This document shows, in pieces, positions 32,075 to 33,974 of a stretch of DNA of 64,000 bases. The DNA is taken from the NCBI GenBank assembly GCA_023144035.1, contig JAGLGM010000001.1, forward strand, positions 199,422 to 263,421, given 5' to 3'. Position numbers and translations under genes: made by a program. This DNA is from Candidatus Pacearchaeota archaeon. GTDB taxonomy: Archaea; Nanobdellota; Nanobdellia; Pacearchaeales; GW2011-AR1. The notes under the pieces were generated by a model. The model was not told where the DNA came from. It did no database searches and saw nothing but the letters and a program-made list of their open reading frames with translations. The stretch's first letter is position 1; the number at the start of each line of letters is the position of its first letter.

Positions 32075-32260
32075 ATGGGTAAAATAAAATCAAAATTAGT
32101 AAGAAGGTCTTCAAAGACATTTATTGAAAAAGGAATTGAATTTAATGAAAACTTTGAACATAATAAAAAAATACTTGGAAGTACAATGCCAAGTAAAAAA
32201 TTAAGAAATCAAATAGCTGGATTCTTAGCAAGAGAAAGAAAACAGAAGAAAAAAGAATAA
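32075..32260 (+). CDS. rps17e: Ribosomal protein eS17
   Basis: MGKIKSKLVRRSSKTFIEK...NFEHNKKILGSTMPSKKLRNQIAGFLAR. Confidence 0.85.
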   Translation: MGKIKSKLVRRSSKTFIEKGIEFNENFEHNKKILGSTMPSKKLRNQIAGFLARERKQKKKE

Positions 32261-32297: not shown

Positions 32298-32390
32298 GGC
32301 GTTGTAGCTTAGTGTCTTAAAGCGCGGCTCTCATGAAATCTTTAGATTTGAGAAAGGCCGAGATCGGGAGTTAAAATCTCCCCAACGTCA
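32298..32390 (+). tRNA. tRNA-Met (anticodon CAT) with ~19-nt intron after position 37
   Basis: GGCGTTG/CAACGTC acceptor; GCTT/AAGC D-stem; CGGCT/GGCCG anticodon stem; intron ~32336-32354; T-loop TTAAAAT. Confidence 0.85.
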
Positions 32391-33156
32391 CTTTATTTAA
32401 AAATTTAAAATTAATTTTATTTCTAATAAATTGCATCCTCTTAGAAGTAAATTTTTTTAGTGCATGATTATACTCTTGATCATATTGTAAAAATTTTGAA
32501 AACCGATTACTTTGCTTTGGATTGACAAAACCTACATAATCATTAAAAAGAATTAAATTCTCCTTACCATTAAATTGGAACCTACATTGTTCTTGCGCAT
32601 TCCACTTAGAATCTAATCTTGCTTCACATAAATAATAAGCTCCATTTAAACCTAAAGAAATTAAATAATCATAAATTTGTTTTAAAAAATTTTTATGTAT
32701 AACTCTTGCTTCTACCCTTGGATAAAATTTATTTGGGTTTTTGGTTAGAACTAAAGAGCCATCTGTAGCAAAAAAGCCTTGTACAATATATTTTATAAGT
32801 CCTTTATCATAAAAGGTTTGGGAAATAATAAGTTGCTGTCCTTTTTTTCCCACTGGAAATCCATGGTCTTTTAGTTTATTGAAGAGAATTTTATCTGTAA
32901 AAGCTATTTCTATTGCATTACAATCTAATCTTTTCTTAATTTTAACACTTTTTCTATTCCCTTCTCTTAAAGAATTAATAAGGGGAATCACGACCTGTTC
33001 ATAAAAAGGTTTATCATCTAAAGAATTCCCAGTAATCACAATTGCATAATAATCTTTCTTACAAGAAGTATAAGCAGACAAACATCCATCTCCAGATAAT
33101 ATTCCAAATAACAATGCAAATCTTTTATCCTGATTTAAAGAATTCATATTAAACAT
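32371..33156 (-). CDS. LAGLIDADG homing endonuclease-like protein
   Basis: FALLFGILSGDGCLS and KYIVQGFFATDGSLVLTKNPNKFYPRVEARVIHKNFLKQIYDYLISLGL; ATG at 33156 preferred over TTG at 33174. Confidence 0.85.
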   Translation of the reverse strand: MFNMNSLNQDKRFALLFGILSGDGCLSAYTSCKKDYYAIVITGNSLDDKPFYEQVVIPLINSLREGNRKSVKIKKRLDCNAIEIAFTDKILFNKLKDHGFPVGKKGQQLIISQTFYDKGLIKYIVQGFFATDGSLVLTKNPNKFYPRVEARVIHKNFLKQIYDYLISLGLNGAYYLCEARLDSKWNAQEQCRFQFNGKENLILFNDYVGFVNPKQSNRFSKFLQYDQEYNHALKKFTSKRMQFIRNKINFKFLNKVTLGRF

Positions 33157-33207
33157 TATATTAATTAGCGTCAACGATTTATAATATTTAGTAACTTCTT
33201 CATAGTT

Positions 33208-33242
33208 AGGCCAAGGTCGGGAGTTAAAATCTCCTCAGAGAC
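33208..33242 (+). pseudogene. Second copy of a tRNA 3' half (aggccaaggtcgggagttaaaatctcctcagagac)
   Basis: Near-identical to tRNA-Met 3' half aggccgagatcgggagttaaaatctcccca; no matching 5' half nearby. Confidence 0.6.
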
Positions 33243-33254
33243 ATAATTTTAATT

Positions 33255-33656
33255 TCAATCCAGAAACTTTTTAATCTTATCTGAAATTTCTTTCATTTCT
33301 TCTTCAGAAGGTTTTACTTCAAGAGGTTTTAAATTAAATCCAGATTTACCATCTAAAGGAAATAATTTGACATGTACATGGTCAACCTCTAATCCTTCAA
33401 CAACCATTCCTGTCTTAATTGGTTTTAAAGAATTGTCCATAGCTTTTGCTACTTTCTTTGCTACCAAAAGTAATTCAGAATAATTTTTATCATCCATTTC
33501 AAATAAATAAGAACTAATATGTTCCTTGGGAATAATTAAAACTTGTCCCTTCATAACTGGAAATGCATCTAAAAAAGCTAAATATTTTTCATCTTCATAA
33601 ATTTTTTCAACAGAAATTTCTCCTTTCACTATCTTACAAAATACACAATCATCCAT
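33255..33656 (-). CDS. HIT-family protein
   Basis: CVFCKIVKGEISVEKIYEDEKYLAFLDAFPVMKGQVLIIPKEH, DHVHVKLFP. Confidence 0.88.
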   Translation of the reverse strand: MDDCVFCKIVKGEISVEKIYEDEKYLAFLDAFPVMKGQVLIIPKEHISSYLFEMDDKNYSELLLVAKKVAKAMDNSLKPIKTGMVVEGLEVDHVHVKLFPLDGKSGFNLKPLEVKPSEEEMKEISDKIKKFLD

Positions 33657-33743
33657 GAGAAAAATAAACAGAAACAGTTTAAAGATTTTTCTAAATTCTC
33701 TCAAACATATTTACAACTAACAAATAAAAATAAAAATTATTAT

Positions 33744-33974
33744 TTACCTTCTCTTTTTTTTCTTTACAGGTTTCTTTTTCACAGGTTTTTTCTTAACTAC
33801 TTTCTTTTTCACAACTTTTTTCTTCACCGGTGCTTTTTTCTTAACAACCTTTTTCTTAACAGGCTTCTTTTTAACTACTTTCTTTTTCACAACCTTCTTC
33901 TTAACAACTTTTTTCTTAACAGCCTTCTTTTTTACAGGTTTTTTCTTCACAACTTTTTTCTTTTTAACTGGCAT
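33744..33974 (-). CDS. Lysine-rich (V/P/A)KKK-repeat basic protein, histone H1-tail-like
   Basis: MPVKKKKVVKKKPVKKKAVKKKVVKKK...; own promoter-like upstream region. Confidence 0.6.
   Translation of the reverse strand: MPVKKKKVVKKKPVKKKAVKKKVVKKKVVKKKVVKKKPVKKKVVKKKAPVKKKVVKKKVVKKKPVKKKPVKKKKRR

Follow-up and report, generated by a model that had tools for sequence, protein, structure and literature searches.

In the genome of a Candidatus Pacearchaeota archaeon, a tRNA-Met gene next to the ribosomal protein gene S17e is followed by an antisense LAGLIDADG endonuclease gene and by an orphan second copy of the tRNA 3′ half. We analyzed this region within a stretch of 64,000 nucleotides (contig JAGLGM010000001.1, positions 199,422 to 263,421; termed the window, to which coordinates without a contig label refer) of a draft archaeal assembly of 0.78 Mb that is 91% complete (G000). 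The region is probably a homing cassette, in which a LAGLIDADG endonuclease gene is fused at its 3′ end to a complete tRNA-Met and which has destroyed and substituted the native tRNA. Insertion into a native tRNA gene, replacement by a complete tRNA for the same amino acid, loss of the native gene, and overlap of the endonuclease gene with the tRNA could be demonstrated at the level of sequence comparison. The site comprises the following features:

32075 to 32260, plus strand: S17e ribosomal protein gene (NCBIfam S17e, E = 6e-14), which marks the syntenic 5′ flank of tRNA-Met throughout the family
32298 to 32390, plus strand: complete tRNA-Met(CAU) (Rfam RF00005, 50.8 bits; aragorn, Met-CAU)
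32336 to 32354, plus strand: bulge-helix-bulge (BHB) intron of the tRNA-Met, 19 nt, at position 37/38 (folding: perfect 3-4-3 BHB in the predicted pre-tRNA)
32371 to 33174, minus strand: open reading frame (ORF) of 267 amino acids, predicted double-motif LAGLIDADG homing endonuclease (ORF and fold match)
33195 to 33207, plus strand: cttcttcatagtt, possibly what is left, after decay, of the anticodon-loop/intron end of the native tRNA (weak by-eye similarity to GCTCTCATGAG of the remnant in genome G152)
33208 to 33243, plus strand: remnant 3′ half, assigned to the displaced native tRNA-Met (acceptor CAGAGAC, discriminator A; repeat of exon 2)
33255 to 33704, minus strand: HIT-family protein gene, right flank of the site (NCBIfam HinT-type, E = 8e-16)

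All four helices of the tRNA-Met pair (acceptor GGCGTTG/CAACGTC, type C), and we interpret this gene as the replacement tRNA of the cassette. The stop codon of the endonuclease ORF lies within the tRNA gene, so that the ORF overlaps the final 20 nt of the tRNA. A direct repeat connects 32355 to 32384 with 33208 to 33237 (27/30 identical, 853 bp apart), with no such exon-2 repeat expected by chance according to shuffled sequences. The repeat starts exactly at exon 2, and its second copy extends to 33243, ending in the acceptor strand CAGAGAC versus CAACGTC in the complete tRNA. A single ORF and no integrase gene were found between the two copies. These results bear out what a reading of the sequence alone had described, namely, a tRNA-Met with an intron of about 19 nt, an antisense LAGLIDADG ORF, a second 3′-half copy about 850 bp away, and no visible integrase. 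The endonuclease ORF lies outside the 19-nt intron and antisense to exon 2 and is thus not intron encoded.

The Pfam match of the ORF product to LAGLIDADG_3 was marginal (E = 7e-4, just short of the Pfam cutoff), and a sequence search of the PDB gave nothing useful. The fold search, in contrast, was informative: an AlphaFold2 model built from 12 homologues (predicted local distance difference test score [pLDDT] of 89, predicted template modeling score [pTM] of 0.88) was compared to the PDB by Foldseek, and the top matches included the archaeal intron endonucleases I-Tsp061I (2dch, E = 4e-10) and I-DmoI. The catalytic aspartates are conserved in close homologues (D29 in 11/12, D138 in 12/12). 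Because of this fold match and the conserved aspartates, the model identifies the product as a double-motif LAGLIDADG homing endonuclease. Its close relatives are named Candidatus Pacearchaeota, Nanoarchaeota, and Woesearchaeota. A viral origin was considered and rejected, as a single scan of IMG/VR returned no relative.

Two genomes of the same genus, G001 and G002, allowed a comparison of empty and occupied sites, as the sequence-only reading had proposed. G001 lacks the endonuclease; beside the same S17e gene, it has an intact tRNA-Met with an intron (GTCTCTG/CAGAGAC) and thus represents the empty site. In G002, S17e is followed by a tRNA-Met of another type that lacks an intron (GGCTACA), by an antisense endonuclease that is degraded and interrupted by an in-frame stop, and by a remnant ending CAGAGACA. 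In the window, the tRNA-Met is of a third type (GGCGTTG), the endonuclease is intact, and the remnant likewise ends CAGAGACA. The CAGAGAC acceptor is common to the intact native tRNA of G001 and to the remnants of the window, G002, and G152, a genome of another genus, and all three occupied sites combine this remnant with a different inner tRNA. As the empty site of G001 and the remnant of G002 have the same acceptor, sequence identifies the orphan half of the window as the 3′ half of the native tRNA-Met. The displaced part is nearer to relatives than the inserted part: the remnant acceptor equals that of the native G001 gene, and the inserted tRNAs are closer to those of other genera. The window tRNA-Met has an identity of 0.89 to that of G026 (another genus) versus 0.74 and 0.61 to its genus mates, and the G002 tRNA-Met has an identity of 0.89 to that of G152 versus 0.69 to that of G001. 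The earlier reading had named relatives with an endonuclease and no second tRNA half as counterevidence. Such loci were found among some distant relatives (L035, L036, and L043), whereas the 3′ half with CAGAGAC is present, intact or as a remnant, in all three genus members and in G152.

In nested loci, halves of the native tRNA surround a complete inner tRNA. S17e of G152 (L044) is followed in turn by GTCTCTGTAGCTCAGAGTTA (native 5′ part), a complete tRNA-Met (GGCTGCA), an antisense endonuclease, and GCTCTCATGAGGCAGAGGTCGGGAGTTAAAATCTCCCCAGAGACA (native 3′ part). The acceptor of the two native parts pairs in 7/7 positions, and about 7 nt of the D-stem/anticodon-stem junction are gone, so that the native parts are unable to form a tRNA. 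The inner gene is the only elongator tRNA-Met found in G152; the other CAU tRNA has initiator features. Two further nested loci concern other amino acids. At the tRNA-Thr(GGT) locus of G172 (L057), the outer acceptor is GCCTCTA/TAGAGGC, the inner tRNA starts with GCCTGAA, and the inner gene is the only Thr(GGT) of the genome. Its empty site is represented by G098, G136, and G177, in which an intact tRNA-Thr bearing the outer acceptor follows what looks like the same upstream gene. At the tRNA-Arg(CCT) locus of G176 (L050), the outer acceptor is GCTTCCG/CGGGAGC and the inner one is GCCCGAG. The anticodon of the outer tRNA is uncertain here because the GCTCCCG genes of relatives are Arg(TCT); G176 keeps an intact Arg(TCT), and the only Arg(CCT) found is the inner one. 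A strict scan of 45 loci for nested halves with outer acceptors paired in 7/7 positions returned exactly these three (Met, Arg, and Thr), compared to no case in 300 shuffles of all 45 loci.

The sequence-only reading had compared the region to an insertion at a tRNA gene with regeneration of the 3′ end. Under this explanation, which follows the logic of integrases, the present tRNA would consist of the resident 5′ half and an element-borne 3′ half, the native 3′ half would have been displaced, and later mutations would have re-matched the acceptor stem. The window agrees with it insofar as only a 3′ half is displaced, beginning exactly at exon 2, and three changes of the 5′ acceptor strand would be enough to re-match the stem. 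The element within a tRNA gene and the displaced 3′ half are retained from this proposal; the regeneration of a mere 3′ end is not, since the whole tRNA has been replaced. Neither acceptor strand of the resident tRNA (GGCGTTG/CAACGTC) matches its native counterpart in G001 (GTCTCTG/CAGAGAC), the window tRNA is like the type of another genus along its whole length, and no integrase ORF is present. G152, where both native halves flank a complete foreign tRNA, contradicts the proposal, and the native 5′ half is likewise displaced around a complete tRNA in L050 and L057. Regeneration of the 3′ end alone fits the window by itself and not the nested loci, and we regard it as unlikely.

The association of LAGLIDADG genes with tRNA genes extends beyond this genus. 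All 13 close family homologues (13/13; 41 to 55% identical) are located at tRNA-Met next to S17e, and the 3′ end of each falls on the tRNA or close to it, the tRNA of L038 being oriented opposite to those of the other close homologues; S17e adjoins tRNA-Met in most of the approximately 90 loci examined. A wider survey covered 59 related LAGLIDADG loci in Pacearchaeota, Woesearchaeota, and Aenigmatarchaeota. A tRNA was called within 150 nt of the endonuclease 3′ end in 45/59 loci, and about five more have a tRNA that the caller missed (L249, L251, L266, L267, and L268). Around 50 of the 59 genes thus end at their 3′ side on a complete tRNA, with about 12 isoacceptor types represented (names of intron-bearing tRNAs are aragorn calls, some of which may be wrong), and in 28/59 loci the endonuclease stop codon lies inside the tRNA. 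Two designs were recognized: the tRNA is either convergent with the endonuclease (mainly Met and Phe) or downstream on the same strand (Ile, Ala, Gln, Glu, Thr, Val, Arg, Ser, Lys, and Asn). The endonucleases of two Met loci (L045 and L046) are decayed, as expected for a homing cycle. On balance, we favor the view that these loci form a widespread DPANN home-and-rescue class, in which each endonuclease lineage would target one isoacceptor gene, destroy it, and replace it by a linked cut-resistant copy, with essential tRNA genes being repeatedly swapped between genera.

Alternatively, tRNA genes might have been tandemly duplicated and decayed at a recombination-prone locus, with the endonuclease having merely settled beside the tRNA. 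Partial tRNA copies that have the acceptor of the intact tRNA and no endonuclease do exist at this locus in several relatives (L097, L133, L113, and L135). Duplication does not account for the nested cases, where the inner tRNA has another acceptor than the outer halves and these halves enclose the endonuclease, nor for the adjacency to tRNAs in about 50/59 homologues and some 12 isoacceptors, and this explanation appears quite improbable. The sequence-only reading had also offered a split, trans-spliced tRNA, as known from some archaea (PMC10714607), with the orphan half as its 3′ part; the T-arm and acceptor strand are indeed intact in the window, but the window genome contains no 5′ half with a pairing acceptor (no match to GTCTCTGTNG or GTYTYTGTRGNNNAG at 91% completeness), its homologue is decayed in G002 and has no D-stem sequence in G152, and the half alone is not a stable fold (z = -0.2), so that this possibility can practically be dismissed. 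A permuted tRNA was rejected as well, as no 5′ half lies downstream of 33243.

Partial tRNA-Met copies (5′ or 3′ halves) without an endonuclease were observed 20 to 120 bp from an intact gene in L088, L097, L098, L113, L115, L132, L133, L135, L139, and L151. L088 is nested and its acceptors differ, as in a cassette scar; in the other loci the acceptor is shared, and another small insertion or a duplication process may be responsible. The idea that every partial copy at the S17e locus is a cassette scar was rejected, since many have the same acceptor as the intact tRNA and resemble local duplications.

For the homing cassette, we propose the following cycle. The endonuclease would cleave the gene of the native tRNA-Met within its D-arm/anticodon-arm stretch. 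We infer a cut site between the D-arm and the anticodon loop because the 5′ remnants end at nt 15 to 24 and the 3′ remnants begin there (L044, L050, and L057); the GCTCTCAT remnants in L040 to L042 also bear on this site. Repair from a cassette-bearing copy would then insert the cassette, the S17e side and the native 3′ half serving as homology arms. The native tRNA would be destroyed, leaving its 3′ half, and sometimes also its 5′ half, as a scar. The cassette tRNA would take over decoding and would be spared from cutting since its anticodon arm differs from the target, a difference that is clear in G002 and G152 and less so in the window. The same design exists for other tRNAs, including Phe, Ile, Thr, Arg, Gln, and Ala, and cassettes may be active and mobile at present.

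Several observations weigh against this interpretation. The anticodon arm of the window tRNA (GGCTCTCATGA) is close to the native one, making resistance least certain here of all cases, and the window keeps only the native 3′ half, so its 5′ half could be native and altered. A partial Mantel test gave no more than suggestive evidence that the inner tRNA and endonuclease are inherited together (r = 0.27, p = 0.08, n = 12). Outer halves could not be detected at most type II loci or at several Met loci, and a looser nested-half scan yielded about one match per shuffled data set and was not discriminating. The carrier genomes are bins of 84 to 92% completeness, and sole-copy status is accordingly not absolute.

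Further observations were made around these loci. In the native-type tRNA-Mets at the S17e locus (window 32298 to 32390, L033, L072, L075, and others), the T-loop reads TTAAAAT, which places an A at position 56, and the D-loop lacks its customary GG. The G19-C56 tertiary pair, which is nearly universal, thus seems to be missing, and a U19-A56 pair may make up for it in the window. On the right-hand side of the site, G002 also has a HIT-like ORF (by eye), and a short, extremely lysine-rich ORF (MPVKKKKVVKKKPVKKK...) lies at 33744 to 33974 (minus strand), with a comparable stretch in the corresponding position of G002 (L032). A second LAGLIDADG ORF of the window genome (G000:C8:33102-33894, L011) runs into a same-strand tRNA-Leu(AAG), following the second cassette design. 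In L244, L249, L251, and L268, woesearchaeal tRNA-Mets beside the endonuclease are interrupted by long and unusual sequences in which certain motifs recur (GCTCATA..GTTGAGCGATGA and TAACTGGGTTAC), possibly multiple introns or embedded C/D-like RNA. Dense tandem tRNA arrays of about 20 and 8 genes reach the contig ends in G000 (C14:26156-27759 and C11:60359-60970; L152, L153, and L163). C14 also carries ORFs resembling by eye RtcB ligase, peptidyl-tRNA hydrolase 2, and tRNA nucleotidyltransferase; the arrays may belong to a single tRNA island of a virus or plasmid, or to a large virus that was binned in error.

The closest precedent is found in fungal mitochondrial mobile ORFs (mORFs; Allomyces atp6; Glomus atp6, atp9, cox2, and nad3 hybrids), whose endonuclease carries a foreign C-terminal replacement of the invaded gene (PMC3630166). 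As in the cassette, an essential gene is invaded, a foreign replacement of the displaced part is brought along, and the native end is left as a remnant; the mORFs supply only a C-terminal coding part in mitochondria, whereas the cassette supplies a whole tRNA gene on archaeal chromosomes and for many isoacceptors. Introns are the setting from which archaeal LAGLIDADG genes are otherwise known (PMC6125680). I-DmoI and I-Tsp061I share the fold, the double motif, and the location in RNA genes with the window endonuclease; they reside in spliced introns, whereas the window gene lies outside the intron and antisense, and its host gene is replaced instead of spliced. Integrative elements at tRNA attachment sites likewise displace a tRNA 3′ half to their far end; unlike them, the cassette has no integrase, measures 0.85 kb, and carries a full tRNA. 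Engineered home-and-rescue or cleave-and-rescue drives combine a nuclease with a recoded, cut-resistant copy of an essential target. The cassette resembles these in pairing a nuclease with a substitute for an essential target, except that it is natural, its rescue is a tRNA, and its resistance is putative. No account of endonucleases in these archaea linked to tRNA genes that had been disrupted or replaced, and none of homing cassettes carrying a tRNA, was found in the literature collection searched.

The proposed cassette predicts that the native tRNA gene is cut and the inner tRNA is spared. If correct, it would be a natural counterpart of an engineered home-and-rescue drive, in which carriage of a whole gene, not an intron, would solve the problem of host death from homing into an essential gene. 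It would also explain the strong divergence of tRNA-Met, and probably of other tRNAs, between close relatives in these archaea, as well as the orphan tRNA halves that litter their genomes.
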